Below are positions 36,388 through 45,109 of a stretch of DNA of 64,000 nucleotides, in pieces. A model generated the notes under the pieces. That model had not been told where the DNA came from. It saw nothing but the letters and a program-made list of their open reading frames with translations, and made no database searches. How positions within the stretch are numbered: position 1 is the stretch's first letter; each line of letters begins with the position of its first letter. The translations under genes were made by a program, and so were the position numbers. The stretch comes from Candidatus Zixiibacteriota bacterium. GTDB lineage: Bacteria; Zixibacteria; MSB-5A5; SM23-73-2. The stretch lies in assembly GCA_030615745.1 (NCBI GenBank), contig JAUWYR010000001.1, forward strand, positions 1-64,000, read 5' to 3'.

Positions 36388-36549
36388 TTATTTTTTTCTT
36401 TTCTTATCAAAAATATACTTCTTAGGTTCTTTTTCAAACTCCGACTGACATAAAGGACAACAGAGATAGTAGATCTCACCTTGATAAAAAATCTTAGCAT
36501 AGGCTTTATTGGGATTCATTCTCCTTTTACAAACTGGATCATAGTGCAT
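36388..36549 (-). CDS. YHS-domain microprotein
   Basis: 53 residues, good GGAG site. HYDPVCKRRMNPNKAYAK with CCPLCQSEFEKEPKKYI: the D-P-V-C...C-C-x-x-C metal-binding YHS/TRASH pattern found in copper and heavy-metal proteins. A second, similar microprotein lies 46 bases upstream. Likely a metal-sensing or -carrying accessory of the CusABC cluster. Confidence 0.75.
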   Translation of the reverse strand: MHYDPVCKRRMNPNKAYAKIFYQGEIYYLCCPLCQSEFEKEPKKYIFDKKRKK

Positions 36550-36594: not shown

Positions 36595-36759
36595 TTAATC
36601 TTTTTGTTCTTTTGGTTTTTTCATATATTTCTCTGGCTCTTTCTCGAATTCAGATTTACACAACGGACAGCAGGCTAAATAATCCTTTCCTTTATATTTC
36701 AGAGAAAGGTAAGCTTTCTCTTTATCAATCTGGGCATTGCAAACTATGCATCTATCCAT
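36595..36759 (-). CDS. YHS/TRASH-like microprotein
   Basis: 54 residues with GGAGGTG site. DRCIVCNAQIDKEKAYLSLK and CCPLCKSEFEKEPEKYM show the same Cys set as the 36388 protein (about half of residues identical by eye), so the two are tandem paralogues. Probably metal-binding. Confidence 0.75.
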   Translation of the reverse strand: MDRCIVCNAQIDKEKAYLSLKYKGKDYLACCPLCKSEFEKEPEKYMKKPKEQKD

Positions 36760-36785: not shown

Positions 36786-37124
36786 TCAGAGTGCGGCTTC
36801 GCCTTTTTCTCCAGTGCGGATTCGAATAGCTGTCTCCACCGGGGAGATAAAAATCATGCCATCTCCCTTAGAGCCGGTATAGGAACTACCGCTGATCACC
36901 TGCACCAGACGGTCAACATCTTTGTCCGCACAGACCACCTCTAACTTAGTTATATCCCAGTATCTTTTGGTGATACTCTCATCGGTGGTAAAATAGTTGG
37001 GATCGAATCCATAGCCCACAGGGTGCACGGTGACCACAGTGATTCCCGGCGCTTTTGCCTCCTCCAATGCCTTTACCGTTCTTTCTAAGACCTCTGTTCG
37101 GATATAGGCTTTTATCTCTTTCAT
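36786..37124 (-). CDS. P-II family signalling protein
   Basis: 112 residues behind AGGAGG. KEIKAYIRTEVLERTVKALE, the B-loop TGSKGDGMIFISPVE, and C-terminal IRIRTGEKGEAAL are P-II features; the T-loop (VGYGFDPNYFTTDES) differs from nitrogen-type GlnB and lacks the usual uridylylated Tyr context. This subgroup occurs beside CusA-type metal efflux genes and may sense metal or nucleotides rather than nitrogen. Confidence 0.85.
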   Translation of the reverse strand: MKEIKAYIRTEVLERTVKALEEAKAPGITVVTVHPVGYGFDPNYFTTDESITKRYWDITKLEVVCADKDVDRLVQVISGSSYTGSKGDGMIFISPVETAIRIRTGEKGEAAL

Positions 37125-37250: not shown

Positions 37251-37649
37251 TCAGAAATATTTTTTTTCAATCAATAGTTTTATCTGCTCCAAGCTCTTTC
37301 CCTGCACAAACCAGTTGAAGGCATCACGGCCCTCGTCATTACATTCTCTTCAGGTGGGAGGACATCTTCCCTTGTAGCAAACATCCAGATACTCTCCACA
37401 ACAAGGGCAGGGAATCTCAGATACGATATCTGGAATCTCTTTTAGAAGGAAGCTATATAGTTCTGAGCCATCCGGTGGAAGTGTCAATCGGGAGAGACGT
37501 TCCCTCCGGTTATCAAGACCGTCAGCATTTTGAAAAAGATACAGAGTTAAAATTACGATCGCAAAAACTCCCAGAAGGCTCAATAGGGTAAACATTTTTC
37601 GCCTTTTCCCTTTTTTAAAGCCTTTCTTTTTTTCTTCTTTGAAATTCAT
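37251..37649 (-). CDS. Probable selenoprotein of the CYCXC/PCYCGC-like family (UGA readthrough)
   Basis: As a normal frame the gene ends at TGA 37350-37352 after 99 residues (…CYKGRCPPT). The same frame continues for 32 further codons to TGA 37251: RECNDEGRDAFNWFVQGKS, then LEQIKLLIEKKYF. Read through, the UGA sits as U in U-R-E-C, aligning with the second Cys pair of Cys-rich PCYCGC-type proteins, whose C-terminal part (C-x-x-C, then G-x-S-x-x-x-I-x-x-x-I-x-x-x-Y) is exactly what the extension restores. The N-terminus has a basic and a hydrophobic segment (membrane anchor). It lies in the metal-resistance cluster. The alternative, a recent nonsense mutation, is less likely because the extension is so well conserved in pattern. 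Confidence 0.7.
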
Positions 37650-37718
37650 TATAAAGACAGTTCACTCCTTTCTTTGATGTCATCACAAAAGATAGATAAA
37701 CAGATCCTAATTTGCCTT

Positions 37719-37757: not shown

Positions 37758-38345
37758 CTATTTACCTTCCATTTCCTTCATATGCATTGCGGGCTCGGAT
37801 TCGCCACCAGCTTCTTCGATGAATTTCCCGTTCTGCGTCATCCCGGTCATTTCTCCACACTTATACATCTTGGAGCCGTAGTAGGGGTTGCCTATCTGAT
37901 CATTTTCCTGTAGCCAGCTTTCTTTTATCATGGAGCAGTGAAAACTGTAAGCTTTGCCTGAAAAACCGAACCATTTGACATAATCTATCGTAGCCTGTGA
38001 AAGGGAAGCAAATCCTTTACGCGCCTCTTCCAGATTACCAGCTTTCAAATTAGATGAGCTGGTTTGAATCCGCTCTAAAGCTTTAATCAGGTTTCCCAGC
38101 TGGACTGACATCTCCTGAGCATGGGTGCTCACCTGGTCGACTTTATCCTGGGCTAAAAGCTCCCGAATGGCAAAATAGTGTTTGAAAATTTCAGCCATCT
38201 CATCTGATGTGGTGACTTCTTCTTTTGCCGAAGCTTCCAAAGGCTTTTCCTCAGATTTCTGATCTGCCAAAACGGGACTTGAAAAAATTCCCAAAATGAA
38301 TAAACCCAAGGTTAAAATGACGGTTAATTTAATCTGTTTTTTCAT
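37758..38345 (-). CDS. DUF3347 periplasmic protein of the metal-efflux operon
   Basis: 195 residues; signal peptide ending PVLA. EIFKHYFAIRELLAQDKVDQ and YSFHCSMIKESWLQENDQIGNPYYGSKMYKCGEM (two runs) are the DUF3347 pattern: Tyr/Leu-rich helix followed by C-x-M and NPYYG-x-x-M-x-x-CGE. This family is found fused to or beside CusB-type adaptors and carries metal-ligand Cys and Met residues. It follows the cusA gene with 104 bases between. Confidence 0.9.
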   Translation of the reverse strand: MKKQIKLTVILTLGLFILGIFSSPVLADQKSEEKPLEASAKEEVTTSDEMAEIFKHYFAIRELLAQDKVDQVSTHAQEMSVQLGNLIKALERIQTSSSNLKAGNLEEARKGFASLSQATIDYVKWFGFSGKAYSFHCSMIKESWLQENDQIGNPYYGSKMYKCGEMTGMTQNGKFIEEAGGESEPAMHMKEMEGK

Positions 38346-38449: not shown

Positions 38450-41400
38450 TTAATCAGATTTAGTATCTTCTTTTTCTGTCTCCTCTTTTAAACTCCAGCC
38501 CTTGACAATTGCATATATGGCTGGGATTATTATCAAAGTCAGGACAGTGGAGCTAATTAGTCCCCCTACCATGGGAGAGGCCATTCGCTTCATCACCTGT
38601 GAGCCGGTGCCATGTCCGATCATTAAAGGAAGAAGACCGATCATGGTGGTAACCACAGTCATAAGCTTTGGTCTAACCCTTTCCACCGCTCCCTCGATTA
38701 TGGCTGAATGTAAATTAGATAGGGTATTAAGTTTTCCTTGTCGCTTAAAACGATGATAAGCTTCTTCCAAATATACCAACATCACCACACCCGTCTCGGC
38801 TGCCAGTCCACCCAGAGCGATAAAACCCACATACACAGCTACACTGGTATTGAACCCCAAAAAATACAACAACCACACTCCACCCACCAGAGAAAAAGGT
38901 AAGGAAAGCATAACTGTCAGGCTGTTGGTCATATTTTTGAAATGGAAGAACAAAAGTAAAAAGATGATGATGATAGTAATAGGAATAACAATTCTGAAAC
39001 GCTTAGCAGCTGCCTGCATATATTCGTATTGTCCACTCCAGATGATATTATAGCCGGCTGGGATGTCTATCTCTTGGGCTACCACCTGCTGAGCTCTTTT
39101 GACATAAGTTCCCACATCGATTCCCTTAATATCAACATAAACCCAGGCAGTTCGCCGGGCGTTTTCTGATTTGATAGCAGGTGGTCCCTTTTTTATCTCG
39201 ATATCAGCTACCTGAGTGATGGGGATTTGTGCTCCGGTTAGCGTGGGTATTAAGATCCTTTTTAAGCTGTTGAGGTCGTCGCGCAGTTCTCGAGGGTAGC
39301 GAACGTTAACCGGGTAGCGTTCCAACCCCTCAATGGTATAGGTCACATTCATACCCCCAACCGCAGACATGATCACATCCTGAACATCCCCTACCGTCAG
39401 TCCATACCTCGCTGCCTCCTCCCTTTTGATCTTATAATCCAAATAATTGCCGCCCACTACTCTTTCAGAGTAAACAGAAAGTGTCCCTGGGACTTTTCTC
39501 ACTACGGCTTCTATTCGTTCCCCTATGGCGGATAGGGTGTCAAGGTTTGCGCCCATTATCTTGATTCCCACAGGGGTCTTGATCCCAGTGGAAAGCATGT
39601 CAATCCTGGTTTTAATAGGCATAGTCCAGGCATTGGTTAGTCCCGGAAACTGTATAGCCTTATCCAGCTCATCCACCAATTTTTCTGGAGTCATCCCGGG
39701 ACGCCACTCTTCCTCTGGCTTTAACATTATGGTAGTTTCAATCATGGTCAAAGGAGCTGGGTCGGTTGCAGTCTCTGCTCTTCCGATCTTGCCGAAAACA
39801 GTTTTTACCTCAGGAAATGAAGCAATGATTTTATCCGTCTGTTGGAGGAGTTCCTTTGCTTTGGTGATTGATATTCCGGGAAAAGTCGTAGGCATATAAA
39901 GTAAATCGCCCTCATAAAGTGGAGGCATGAATTCAGAGCCCAACTTGGAAGCGGGATAGAAGGTTATGCCTAAAATGATTATAGCCGCTAAAATGGTTAG
40001 CCACTTGAAACGTAGCACCAATTTGATGAAGGGCATATAAAGGGCTATGAAAAAACGGGAGATGGGATTTTTCTTCTCCGGCAGGATTTTCCCCTTTATC
40101 ACCACCACCATCAGAGCAGGAATTACGGTGATGGCAAGCAGAGCTGCGGAAGCCATAGCAAAGGTCTTAGTATAAGCCAGCGGCTTGAACAGCCTTCCAG
40201 ACTGCTCCCCTAAGGCAAAGACCGGGAAGAAGGAGACGGTTATAATTAAAAGTGCATAAAAAAGGGCTGGACCCACCTCTTTGGCCGCATCCATTATAAT
40301 TTGCCAGTGCTCCTTTTTCCCCTTATCCCGTTCCAAATGTTTATGAGCATTTTCCACCATCACCACTGAAGCATCCACCATCACTCCTATGGCAATGGCA
40401 ATTCCTCCCAAGGACATGATGTTGGCATTTATTTTCAGATAGTTCATGACGATGAAAGACATCAAGACCCCGGCTGGTAGGGTGAACATAGCTACTAAAG
40501 CGCTTCGGGCATGTAATAAGAAAATCATACAGATCAAGGCTACCACGAGGATCTCCTCGATCAGCTTTCCTTTCAAGTTGTTTATAGCCCGATATATGAG
40601 CCCGGAACGGTCATAAACCGGTTTGATCTTCACCCCAGGAGGCAAACCTGGTTTCAGTTCGTCTAACTTCTTTTTAACGTTTTTGATCACCTCTAAGGCG
40701 TTTTCGCCAAAGCGCATCACAATTATTCCCCCCACCACCTCCCCTAAGCCATCCTTTTCCGCAATTCCTCGACGAAGCTCAGGACCAATTTTGATCTGAG
40801 CAACGTTTCTTAATAGAATTGGGGTCCCGTCCTGGTCTATTCCCAAAGGAACATTTTTTAAATCCTCAATGGATTGAATATAGCCCAATCCTCTCACCAT
40901 GAATTCGGCCTCGGCCATCTCTATCAAACGGCCGCCCACATCGCTGTTAGACCTCTTTATAGCCATCTTCACTTTGGAAAGTGGAATGTTATATGCTAAA
41001 AGCTTGTTCGGATCAACCTCCACCTGGTATTGTTTAACATATCCCCCTACCGAGGCGACCTCAGAAACACCTGGAACAGAGGTTAGCTCGTATTTTAAAT
41101 ACCAGTCCTGAATGCTGCGCAGATCAGAAAGATCCAGATTCCCGCTTTCATCCTCCACCGTGTATTCATACACCCACCCCACCCCGGTAGCATCGGGTCC
41201 TAGCTGAGGAGTTACCCCTGGGGGCAGACGCCCAGAGATAAAGCTTAAATACTCCAAGACCCGAGAGCGAGCCCAATAAAGATCGGTGCCATCCTCAAAG
41301 ATGATATAGACAAATGAGAAACCAAAGAAGGAGTATCCTCTGACTACCTTGGCATAGGGAACAGAAAGCATAGCGGTGGTCAGAGGATAGGTAACTTGAT

Positions 41401-41587
41401 CCTCCACCACCTGAGGAGCTTGACCCGGGTATTCGGTATAAATTATCACCTGCACATCCGAAAGGTCAGGGATGGCGTCTAAAGCGATGTTTTGGATTGC
41501 ATACGCTCCTCCCAGAAAAACGAATATCGCTACAAGGAAGATGATATACTTATTCCTGATCGAATATTCTATGACCTTTTCAACCAT
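38450..41587 (-). CDS. cusA: CusA/CzcA-family heavy-metal RND efflux pump
   Basis: 1045 residues, the normal length. VEKVIEYSIRNKYIIFL at the start, then twelve membrane segments with two large periplasmic loops. GGIAIAIGVMVDASVVMVENAH carries the conserved acidic residue of TM4; IKTRIDMLSTGIKTPVGIKI is the porter-loop signature of HME-RND pumps. It exports Cu(I)/Ag(I) or similar cations by proton antiport. Neighbouring Cys- and Met-rich proteins support copper or silver rather than zinc or cobalt. Adaptor gene cusB overlaps the operon just upstream. Confidence 0.93.
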   Translation of the reverse strand: MVEKVIEYSIRNKYIIFLVAIFVFLGGAYAIQNIALDAIPDLSDVQVIIYTEYPGQAPQVVEDQVTYPLTTAMLSVPYAKVVRGYSFFGFSFVYIIFEDGTDLYWARSRVLEYLSFISGRLPPGVTPQLGPDATGVGWVYEYTVEDESGNLDLSDLRSIQDWYLKYELTSVPGVSEVASVGGYVKQYQVEVDPNKLLAYNIPLSKVKMAIKRSNSDVGGRLIEMAEAEFMVRGLGYIQSIEDLKNVPLGIDQDGTPILLRNVAQIKIGPELRRGIAEKDGLGEVVGGIIVMRFGENALEVIKNVKKKLDELKPGLPPGVKIKPVYDRSGLIYRAINNLKGKLIEEILVVALICMIFLLHARSALVAMFTLPAGVLMSFIVMNYLKINANIMSLGGIAIAIGVMVDASVVMVENAHKHLERDKGKKEHWQIIMDAAKEVGPALFYALLIITVSFFPVFALGEQSGRLFKPLAYTKTFAMASAALLAITVIPALMVVVIKGKILPEKKNPISRFFIALYMPFIKLVLRFKWLTILAAIIILGITFYPASKLGSEFMPPLYEGDLLYMPTTFPGISITKAKELLQQTDKIIASFPEVKTVFGKIGRAETATDPAPLTMIETTIMLKPEEEWRPGMTPEKLVDELDKAIQFPGLTNAWTMPIKTRIDMLSTGIKTPVGIKIMGANLDTLSAIGERIEAVVRKVPGTLSVYSERVVGGNYLDYKIKREEAARYGLTVGDVQDVIMSAVGGMNVTYTIEGLERYPVNVRYPRELRDDLNSLKRILIPTLTGAQIPITQVADIEIKKGPPAIKSENARRTAWVYVDIKGIDVGTYVKRAQQVVAQEIDIPAGYNIIWSGQYEYMQAAAKRFRIVIPITIIIIFLLLFFHFKNMTNSLTVMLSLPFSLVGGVWLLYFLGFNTSVAVYVGFIALGGLAAETGVVMLVYLEEAYHRFKRQGKLNTLSNLHSAIIEGAVERVRPKLMTVVTTMIGLLPLMIGHGTGSQVMKRMASPMVGGLISSTVLTLIIIPAIYAIVKGWSLKEETEKEDTKSD

Positions 41588-41589
41588 AG

Positions 41590-43344
41590 CTATTTGCTCC
41601 TTTTTTTAGATTCCAGTTTTATTAACTCCATGCCGCACTCCGGGCATTTCCCTGGCACATTAGAAAGGATATGATGATGCTCCTCCATGGGACAGGTATA
41701 AACATCTCTGTCCGTTTCGGTGATTGGCACCAAATCCATCCCGCATTCAGGACATTTACCCGGTCCTACCTGAAGTATATGACTATGCTCATCCATTGGG
41801 CAGGTGTAGACCTCCTCGGCATACTCTGCCTTTTTTTCAGGGGTAAGATTCAGATTCTTGACCTCAAGCTGTGCACCCTCATGAACATGCTCCTCTTCTT
41901 TTTTTATAACCGGTATCCTTTCCACTTCAACCTCTTTTGAAGTGTCCATCTTAGCCTTAATCATCTTTTGAATTGCTTCTTGGGTCTTGCTTTCAGAATC
42001 GAGCATGAACTGAGCGGAGACTACCACCACTTCATTCGGAAGAAGTCCTTCTTTAACCGCCAGGACCCCTCCCTCACCACTAACTCCGGTTATGATTTCT
42101 CTGGGTGTATATTTCCCCTCACCTATATCCACAAAAACTATCTCCCTTTTACCTGACCGAATCACCGCCTCCTCGGGAATCAGAGTTCTTTCCCCGGAGA
42201 GCTCAGATTCAATTACCACATTAGTATACATATCCGGCTTGAGTTTGAATCCGGGATTGGAAAACTCCAGGCGCACCTTTACATCACGTGTCTTTTGACT
42301 TAAATAAGGATAGATGTAGGTTAATTTTCCCTCGAAGGTCTCACCTGGAACATAGGGCAAAGTTATGGTGGCTTTCTGTCCCAGCTTTATATAGGGGAGC
42401 TCATATTCATAGATCGTGGCTAACACCCAAACGGTTGAAAGATCAGCTATCCGGAAAAGATCTGATCCTGCTTTAACATAACCTCCTTCGATAGCGTTTT
42501 TATGGATCACTACCCCTTTTGTTAGTGAATAGATGGTCAAAGTTTTTTTGACCTCCCCGGTTTGTTCCAATCTTCTGATCTGGTCTTCATTGATATCCCA
42601 GTATTCTAACCGCCTGCGTGAGGAATTCAGAAGTTCTAAGGCACCCTCTCTGGCTTCCTTAAAGGGGCTATCTTTAAGTTCTTGATAGCCCTTCAAAGAG
42701 GTTAAATATTCTTCCTGAGTGCTGACCAACTCCGGTGAATATAATTCCAGAAGTGGTTGCCCTTTTTCCACCACCTCCCCAGTGGTGTTTACATAAAGTT
42801 TCTCGATCCAACCTGCGATTTTGGTGTTAATGATGTAAAGCTTCTTCTCATCGTAATCGATATGTCCCACAGTTCGGATGGTGCGGGTCAAATTACCGGT
42901 TTTAACCGGTGCAGTTCTGAGACCCATATTTTGAACAGTAACAGGGTCTATAAAGATAGCACCCTCTGCTATCTCATCTTCATAAACAGGTATCAAATCC
43001 ATTCCCATGGGAGATTTGCCTGCCTTATCCGAAATATAAGTTGGGTCCATGGGCGCTCGCCAGTATTTGATTTTTCGCTCTCCTTTGGGTTTAGTGGTGC
43101 CAGCAGAGGCACTTTTAATGGGGGTCAACTTCATTCCACAGACAGGACAGTTCCCTGGTCCCTCTTGAATTATCTCTGGATGCATACCACAGGAATAAAG
43201 TTGCTTAACAGAAGCCTCTCCCATTTGGACCAAATCCTTCGGACCAGAGGATCTTTTTCCCATTAAGAAGCCTAAAGCAACCCCAACGGTCAAAGTTAGA
43301 ATTGCCACCAAAATGATTGTAAGCAATTTTGTTTTCTTTTGCAT
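41590..43344 (-). CDS. cusB: CusB-type periplasmic adaptor with four metal-binding domains
   Basis: About 584 residues from ATG 43344 with AAAGGAGAG upstream; the longer frame lacks a site. N-terminal membrane helix, then a heavy-metal-binding domain (YSCGMHPEIIQEGPGNCPVCG), a second degenerate one, and the HlyD-like adaptor (YIINTKIAGWIEKLYVNTTG at ~160). Uniquely, two more metal-binding domains lie at the C-terminus: TCPMDEHSHILQVGPGKCPE and TCPMEEHHHILSNVPGKCPE. They probably present metal to CusA. Fused metal domains on both ends are unusual in length. Confidence 0.9.
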   Translation of the reverse strand: MQKKTKLLTIILVAILTLTVGVALGFLMGKRSSGPKDLVQMGEASVKQLYSCGMHPEIIQEGPGNCPVCGMKLTPIKSASAGTTKPKGERKIKYWRAPMDPTYISDKAGKSPMGMDLIPVYEDEIAEGAIFIDPVTVQNMGLRTAPVKTGNLTRTIRTVGHIDYDEKKLYIINTKIAGWIEKLYVNTTGEVVEKGQPLLELYSPELVSTQEEYLTSLKGYQELKDSPFKEAREGALELLNSSRRRLEYWDINEDQIRRLEQTGEVKKTLTIYSLTKGVVIHKNAIEGGYVKAGSDLFRIADLSTVWVLATIYEYELPYIKLGQKATITLPYVPGETFEGKLTYIYPYLSQKTRDVKVRLEFSNPGFKLKPDMYTNVVIESELSGERTLIPEEAVIRSGKREIVFVDIGEGKYTPREIITGVSGEGGVLAVKEGLLPNEVVVVSAQFMLDSESKTQEAIQKMIKAKMDTSKEVEVERIPVIKKEEEHVHEGAQLEVKNLNLTPEKKAEYAEEVYTCPMDEHSHILQVGPGKCPECGMDLVPITETDRDVYTCPMEEHHHILSNVPGKCPECGMELIKLESKKRSK

Positions 43345-43360
43345 AAAGCTCTCTCCTTTT

Positions 43361-44638
43361 TTATAGTAATGATTTGCCCACCATCTCCTCAAGTCTGGCG
43401 ATGGTTTTGAAATAAGAACTCAAAGCCTGATGATGGGCTATCTCATAATTGAAAAGGGTCACCTGATTGTTTAGCAAAGTCAGAAAATCGACTTTATTCA
43501 CCTGATAGCCAGACTTGGCGGACTCAAGGGACTGCCGAGCTTGAGGCAGGATAGCGGTCTGGTAAAGTTGGACTTCTTTTTTGAATTTGTTCAAGGAATA
43601 AAATAACTTCGACACCCCAAGCTTCACATAATTTTCGCCACCCTCATATTCTTGACGGGACGATTCTAAATCTAAAGATTTTTCCTGAACCTTTTTTTTC
43701 TGTTTAGACCAAAAGTAAAGCGGGATATTTATACCCGCAGAAAAAGAGACGAAATCCTTTCCTTTTACTGGATCCATCTTTACCTCATCTCTGATCCGGT
43801 AACTGGCTGATAAGGTGAAATCGGGCCAATACTCCCGGAGAGCTAAATCATAAGCTGACTGAGATGCACTCACAAAAAACCCTTTTCCCTTTAAATAAGG
43901 ATTGGTTTCTAAGGCTAAGCTTTGCAACTTCTCCTCGGAATAAGGGAATTCTTGGAAAGTTAAATCTGAAGCTTTCCCTAATGAATCCTGCGGATTCCGA
44001 TTGAGCAGAATGTTTATCTTGGCCTGAATGATTTTTCTCATCTCCTCTAAGGAAATAAGTTTATCTATCATCTTGGAGACCTCCACTTGAGCTTTCAGAA
44101 CATCCTGCTGGATTCCTCTGCCTACCGAATATTTGGTGGAAGCTATGCGAGCAAGATCTTCTATTAGCAATTTGTTCTTCTGGGTAATCTCAATCGATTT
44201 CTGCAATAGGTAAAGTTGATAGTAATTTTGTTTCAGTTCACTCAGGATGAAGTTTTTAGTGGATTTATAGCCTTCCTTTGTTTTTTGGGCTAAACTTCTG
44301 GTGGTTTTCTCGGCAAGCCCCAGCTTTCCCGGGAAGGGGATTTTCTGAGTTAGCATCAACTCCAGTCCGCTCATGGGAGTCTGATCGAAAGACCAGGAAT
44401 CTATGGGTAGATTGGAGCCTACCATTTTGAAAAAAGGATCGGGAAGTGATCCAGCCTGAGGCACCTTTGCCTCAAAGGCTTTGTAGCGAAGTTCAGCAGC
44501 TTTCAGGTCCGGATTGGCTCTGAGAGCTTCAGTGATCAGGGAATCTAAGATTAGCTCTTGTGCCAGGCTCGGCTGCGACATTAGTGTGAGAAGGCTCAAA
44601 CAAATTGCCAGCCCACACCTAAAAAAAGATAGTCTCAA
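43361..44638 (-). CDS. cusC: TolC-like outer-membrane efflux protein (CusC)
   Basis: About 425 residues from TTG 44638, five bases after AAGGAGG; the frame continues 16 codons upstream without a site. Signal peptide ending SLAQ. Two OEP repeats: LRANPDLKAAELRYKA and RASTKYSVGRGIQQDVLKAQ-like segments, and a late AILPQARQSLESAKSGYQVN, the usual TolC periodicity. It forms the outer-membrane channel for CusA/CusB; stop lies 16 bases before cusB. Confidence 0.88.
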   Translation of the reverse strand: MRLSFFRCGLAICLSLLTLMSQPSLAQELILDSLITEALRANPDLKAAELRYKAFEAKVPQAGSLPDPFFKMVGSNLPIDSWSFDQTPMSGLELMLTQKIPFPGKLGLAEKTTRSLAQKTKEGYKSTKNFILSELKQNYYQLYLLQKSIEITQKNKLLIEDLARIASTKYSVGRGIQQDVLKAQVEVSKMIDKLISLEEMRKIIQAKINILLNRNPQDSLGKASDLTFQEFPYSEEKLQSLALETNPYLKGKGFFVSASQSAYDLALREYWPDFTLSASYRIRDEVKMDPVKGKDFVSFSAGINIPLYFWSKQKKKVQEKSLDLESSRQEYEGGENYVKLGVSKLFYSLNKFKKEVQLYQTAILPQARQSLESAKSGYQVNKVDFLTLLNNQVTLFNYEIAHHQALSSYFKTIARLEEMVGKSLL

Positions 44639-44713
44639 TTTAACCTCCTTAAGTAAAAGACAAAAACACCCCCAAAGGGGCAACAAAGCATTGCCTCTTA
44701 GCTTAAAGAGGTA

Positions 44714-45109
44714 TTAAATAAGAAAAGATGAATTAAGAAGATATAAGGGTGGGTCTCTGTTAAGGAGCACAAAAGGATAAGGATACAAGTTCGTAAGCTG
44801 GCTGGAATGATATTGGGTAATAAGTTCGACCTCCGATGTCAGCAAAATGGTCTTAGGTTTACCATCCTGGTGGGAAACAAGAACTGCAGGGGGACTCTCT
44901 TGTTTAGGATTTTCACTCATCTGACAGGGGCATTCGTTCTGCTCCATACCATTAGTTGGTGAGGGCTGAAAATAGCTCTCACAGCAGCAACAGGTGTTTT
45001 GCGATATGTCAGCTTTTTCGCAGGGGTCTCCAGAAACAGGTACAAAAAATAAAATGCTAACTATTAGAAGCAGTGCGATTTTTCCCACCATTTTTCTTTG
45101 TATCCTCAC
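44714..45109 (-). CDS. Cys-rich exported small protein at the head of the cus operon
   Basis: 131 residues from a GTG (or ATG 45091); signal-like N-terminus ending VSGD. Mature part has ISQNTCCCCESYF and NECPCQMSE. Clustered Cys and Met indicate metal binding. Placed first in the operon, before cusC, where small metal-binding proteins are often found. No family recognised; the start is uncertain. Confidence 0.65.
   Translation of the reverse strand: MRIQRKMVGKIALLLIVSILFFVPVSGDPCEKADISQNTCCCCESYFQPSPTNGMEQNECPCQMSENPKQESPPAVLVSHQDGKPKTILLTSEVELITQYHSSQLTNLYPYPFVLLNRDPPLYLLNSSFLI

Follow-up and report, generated by a model that had tools for sequence, protein, structure and literature searches.

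To our knowledge, no member of the CYCXC family has a demonstrated metal or redox activity. The invariant residues of the main family follow the order C, C, C, H, C, H, U/C, C and, judged from their conservation, likely form a metal site. The family, also designated OS_HP4, is already listed among the selenoprotein families, with the motif UxxC (PMC13188914), thus a selenoprotein of this kind is not new in principle. Metal-resistance selenoproteins have been described as well, namely SaoB/SaoC and the SO_0444 Cu/Zn efflux transporter, with selenocysteine (Sec) proposed as metal ligand (PMC13188914).

The window, that is the whole analysed stretch of 64,000 nucleotides from a Candidatus Zixiibacteriota bacterium, very probably encodes a selenoprotein at 37649..37254 on the minus strand, with the UGA at codon 100 read as Sec. 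The following features define the gene:

37251..37649, minus strand, predicted selenoprotein gene of 132 residues, Sec as residue 100, coding part 37649..37254
37350..37352, minus strand, UGA codon 100 (predicted Sec) inside T-U-R-E-C, aligned to the TGA/Cys column of the CYCXC family
37254..37349, minus strand, 32-residue extension past Sec, RECNDEGRDAFNWFVQGKSLEQIKLLIEKKYF, recognized by its match to NF041379 and a shuffle test
37253-37251, minus strand, final TGA stop of the gene
37665..37671, minus strand, AAAGGAG, candidate ribosome binding site read in the sequence, 15 nt from the ATG and thus rather far

The ATG at 37649 opens an ORF of 99 codons (37649..37350) that is closed by the TGA at 37352-37350, followed by 32 more sense codons and a second TGA stop. 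Reading through yields MNFKEEKKKGFKKGKRRKMFTLLSLLGVFAIVILTLYLFQNADGLDNRRERLSRLTLPPDGSELYSFLLKEIPDIVSEIPCPCCGEYLDVCYKGRCPPT-U-RECNDEGRDAFNWFVQGKSLEQIKLLIEKKYF, a protein with a lysine-rich N-terminus, one membrane helix at approximately residues 19-40 and a Cys/Sec-rich domain (79-132). Seven thiol or selenol groups, C81, C83, C84, C91, C96, U100 and C103, are present in this domain. Coordinates and in-frame UGA had been given correctly in the original prediction, which left the strand unstated; it is the minus strand. A plus-strand reading of 37251-37649 was rejected, as translation is closed there. The Cys-rich pattern proposed at the same time held for its U-x-x-C part, but not for CYCXC: the actual motif is CPCC...C...C..U..C. 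An ordinary annotation would stop the protein at residue 99, a quarter shorter and deprived of its most conserved part.

A 32-codon open frame is not unusual on its own and is weak evidence of coding. The read-through protein matched NCBIfam NF041379, the model of the CYCXC family (seleno)protein, over residues 70-131 (E 1.9e-7, 31.1 bits); its first 99 residues, cut at the UGA, had no match. The extension alone, 32 residues, scored 16.5 bits against NF041379 positions 61-89, the family segment that follows the Sec/Cys. With a model built from 20 family members, the window protein left out, the extension reached 14.9 bits versus a maximum of 7.1 bits among 4,363 scored shuffles, none of which was as good (0/4,363). 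Profile alignment by hhalign of the window protein and its Eisenbacteria relative with the CYCXC family gave 98% probability over 78 columns and placed the UGA exactly on the U/C column of the family (U/C-x-x-C). The helical tail that follows U/C-x-x-C in the family, G-[KS]-S..[EQ]I...I..[KR][YF], is present too. Hence the 32 residues gained by reading through TGA 37350-37352, as originally proposed, were borne out by the frame and by the NF041379 match, and the in-frame UGA has conserved coding sequence behind it. The protein departs from the family in other respects. Its 31.1 bits do not reach the family cut-off of 90 bits, and the C-Y-C-x-C motif and the two invariant His are absent: CPCC stands in place of CYCXC, the first His is lost with a deleted stretch, the second is not kept, with C96 nearby. 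A Pfam search gave no match of the protein to PCYCGC (PF13798) at its gathering score. Since the cut-off and the name-giving motif are both missed, the protein is placed as a divergent branch of the CYCXC (OS_HP4)/PCYCGC family, a relative and not a regular CYCXC member.

A first homologue search covered 386 genomes and returned 21 clear family loci. The same codon is TGA in 12 of these 21 loci (L021, L023-L027, L030-L033, L039, L048) and Cys (TGC/TGT) in the other nine (L022, L028, L029, L034-L038, L049), with a constant U/C-x-x-C spacing in both groups. Cys in homologues had been suggested as a check and was found; homologues ending at this point had been named as a refutation, and none stops there for good, all carry TGA or Cys and continue. 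A second profile, made only from the window protein and the Eisenbacteria relative, retrieved the same family from dozens of further genomes. Most of these have a single TGA, which occupied the codon-100 column in all clear matches inspected. Two matches in Acididesulfobacillus (L052, L053) were rejected: they belong to a repeated element that occurs in copies and carries a transposase-like gene, and their PCPCCGE match is due to chance. The nearest and only close relative found, from Candidatus Eisenbacteria Dive96_bin2.117 (L044 = L051), is 42% identical over the whole length and reads CSCCGEELRWCYEGGCPYT-U-GSCNE-[TAA]-GRVAYRMYNEGASEEEILDYINETYF-stop. It shares the TGA and has an in-frame TAA six codons further on. 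In this assembly selA is split into two overlapping frames; because the tail behind the TAA is conserved as well, a sequencing or assembly error at the TAA is plausible. No other member was detected among 146 relatives (class level and beyond), by a single-sequence scan of the genome contigs or in a plasmid search.

The presence of sel genes had been proposed as a test, and selA, selB, selD and tRNA-Sec are all encoded in this genome. They form one cluster on contig C32, all above the curated cut-offs:

C32:3204-3297, tRNA-Sec, anticodon TCA, 66.9 bits
C32:3594-4520, selD (L016), over the curated cut-off
C32:4637-5977, selA, 574 bits
C32:6009-7862, selB, 370 bits

The selenophosphate synthetase SelD has an in-frame TGA of its own in the active-site motif ASSFG-U-ASKCSP (GUASKCSP). 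By this motif SelD is itself a predicted selenoprotein of the genome and serves as internal positive control. Most other genomes bearing a TGA-type family gene also contain selA; it was not found in the TGA-bearing genomes G161 (86% complete) and G203. G203 (97% complete) has one TGA-type (L027) and one Cys-type (L049) family gene, and the absence of selA may stem from a contig that is missing or from one that is stray.

Behind the UGA a bSECIS-like hairpin was located:

37317..37334, minus strand, GAGGGC-CGUGAU-GCCUUC, 6 bp stem, -8.7 kcal/mol

The hairpin starts 15 nt and its loop (6 nt, CGUGAU) 21 nt past the UGA, with G as second loop position. The published bSECIS model describes a loop of 3-9 nt whose first or second base is G, a stem of 4-16 bp, a UGA-to-loop distance of 16-37 nt and a minimum free energy of at most -7.5 kcal/mol (PMC13188914); the hairpin at 37334-37317 lies within all of these limits. 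The stem-loop of the original prediction, ATGACG/CGTGAT, contains one G-G mismatch and has only -2.8 kcal/mol; as SECIS it was excluded by the stronger hairpin overlapping it. The ordinary TGA stops of nine long ORFs in the window did not reach -8.7 kcal/mol (0/9, best -3.4). Of random places in the window, 3.7% reached the hairpin energy anywhere in the allowed range, and 0.8% did so when the loop had to lie at 20-24 nt. When the same peptide was recoded with synonymous codons, 9% of the recodings reached it. The hairpin is modestly special in sequence terms, and the family comparison is the stronger evidence. In 14 of 14 TGA genes the best hairpin has its loop 21-23 nt past the UGA, and base pairs vary at each stem step, e.g., C-G, U-A or G-C as closing pair and G-C or C-G as second pair. 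Hairpins at this place are stronger in TGA genes than in Cys genes (Mann-Whitney p = 0.003, genes taken as independent), and several of the homologues' hairpins miss the -7.5 limit. An Rfam scan of the region gave no relevant match.

These observations bear on two readings without Sec. A recent nonsense mutation could have changed an ancestral Cys codon (TGC/TGT) to TGA, so that the protein would now be either the truncated product of a pseudogene or a form that functions with 99 residues. Some family members do have Cys here, one base away from TGA, but the frame past the TGA is intact and conserved, the Eisenbacteria relative and most of the family share TGA at the same codon, the genome has the equipment to make Sec, and the hairpin is present at the family spacing; we regard such a mutation as very unlikely. 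Decoding of UGA as another amino acid, by a changed genetic code or by plain read-through, would account for the in-frame UGA here and in selD. Yet UGA terminates the P-II gene as well as the selenoprotein gene itself, in agreement with the earlier statement that it is a normal stop elsewhere, and both in-frame UGAs sit on Cys/Sec positions of known families. This explanation has a negligible probability.

The gene had been assigned to a metal-resistance cluster, which proved to be a CusCBA-DUF3347 heavy-metal efflux operon. Its surroundings comprise:

43361..44686, minus strand, outer-membrane efflux protein, CusC-like (PF02321)
41590..43392, minus strand, CusB-type adaptor, carries four HMBD (heavy-metal-binding) repeats
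38450..41587, minus strand, CusA-type heavy-metal RND pump (PF00873)
37758..38345, minus strand, DUF3347 protein (PF11827), encoded upstream in the operon
36786..37124, minus strand, P-II-like protein, downstream gene with ordinary TGA stop
36595..36759, minus strand, YHS-domain small protein
36388..36549, minus strand, YHS-domain small protein

Leftward the gene order is CusC-like, CusB-like, CusA-like, DUF3347, selenoprotein, P-II-like and two YHS proteins. The Cus operon is headed by a Cys-rich ORF of 131 residues (44714-45109, minus strand; CCCC...CPCQM) that had no Pfam match. The genome G004 (same order) has a CusCBA-DUF3347 operon that is 61-74% identical, with no selenoprotein, P-II or YHS genes adjoining; the downstream set of selenoprotein, P-II and YHS genes is therefore accessory. 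The P-II-like regulator (36786-37124, minus strand) thus lies within a heavy-metal efflux operon and is absent beside the sister operon of G004 (L087). Elsewhere 5 of 20 family loci adjoin CusCBA (L070, L071), a copper-type P-type ATPase with HMA and E1-E2 domains (L060, L065) or an HMA/YHS protein (L067), and a sixth (L073) is near an RND fragment, all as raw counts. Other family loci lie by redoxin, cytochrome c assembly, cytochrome or Rieske genes. The CYCXC family thereby gains a specific setting, given by the Cus-type efflux operon here and by the copper or heavy-metal exporters beside several relatives, and in this setting the purpose of Sec becomes a testable question of metal binding.

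An AlphaFold2 model from the two-sequence alignment is helical (pLDDT 75); sequence and fold searches of the PDB yielded nothing useful and no match to a solved structure. The UGA at codon 100 is very probably decoded by the cell's own SelA, SelB, SelD and tRNA-Sec, guided by the downstream hairpin. From the lysine-rich N-terminus and the helix behind it we infer a single-pass, outward-facing membrane protein, whose small helical Cys/Sec domain would be held outside the cytoplasm by the N-terminal helix. There it may bind a soft metal ion such as Cu+, Ag+ or Hg2+ via thiolates and the selenolate, and the bound metal may be passed to, or sensed for, the CusCBA-DUF3347 efflux system. Soft-metal binding with transfer to the pump or sensing for it appears the likeliest role, and is favoured with modest confidence. 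The main functional alternative is a redox role, in which U100-x-x-C103 would be a thiol-disulfide/selenenylsulfide pair that keeps metal-binding thiols reduced and is not itself a metal ligand. The UxxC spacing is of the redox type, the Cys-type loci L062 and L064 adjoin a redoxin-sized gene (an AhpC/Redoxin domain was seen for L062), and the cytochrome c assembly, cytochrome and Rieske neighbours of further loci fit as well. Against a redox pair speak the helical model, which has no thioredoxin fold and is without a solved-structure match, and the further invariant Cys and His, which suggest metal coordination. We consider the redox role a serious option, if distinctly on the doubtful side. 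Returning to metal binding, we tentatively propose, with a confidence somewhat short of even, a rare and so far undescribed selenoprotein subfamily, known from two genomes whose lineages are unrelated. Its members would have an all-thiol/selenol cluster rebuilt from the CYCXC/His site and would act as a Sec-dependent metal receiver for a CusCBA pump.

Compared with SaoB/SaoC and SO_0444, the likeness consists in the use of Sec in heavy-metal handling; these belong to other families. CcmH-like domains (PF03918) have a similar CPCC...G.S...I...Y pattern, which for the window protein itself goes no further than resemblance. At locus L036 (856-1779) an N-terminal domain close to CcmH (CPCC..., slightly short of the PF03918 cut-off) is fused to a CYCXC domain, a hint that the CcmH-like and CYCXC families may be related. 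As to PCYCGC (PF13798), the Eisenbacteria relative matches its C-terminal part (E 2e-4, below cut-off) and one CYCXC family member matches it clearly, whereas the window protein has neither a Pfam match to it nor the PCYCGC motif. With CYCXC (OS_HP4, NF041379) it shares a homologous C-terminal domain, Sec/Cys in the same UxxC column, an N-terminal hydrophobic helix and the bSECIS spacing; it differs in lacking the GHKSLL His segment and in a second His that is Cys or unmatched. The CYCXC family, listed but uncharacterised, is thus extended to a divergent branch missed by the curated models.
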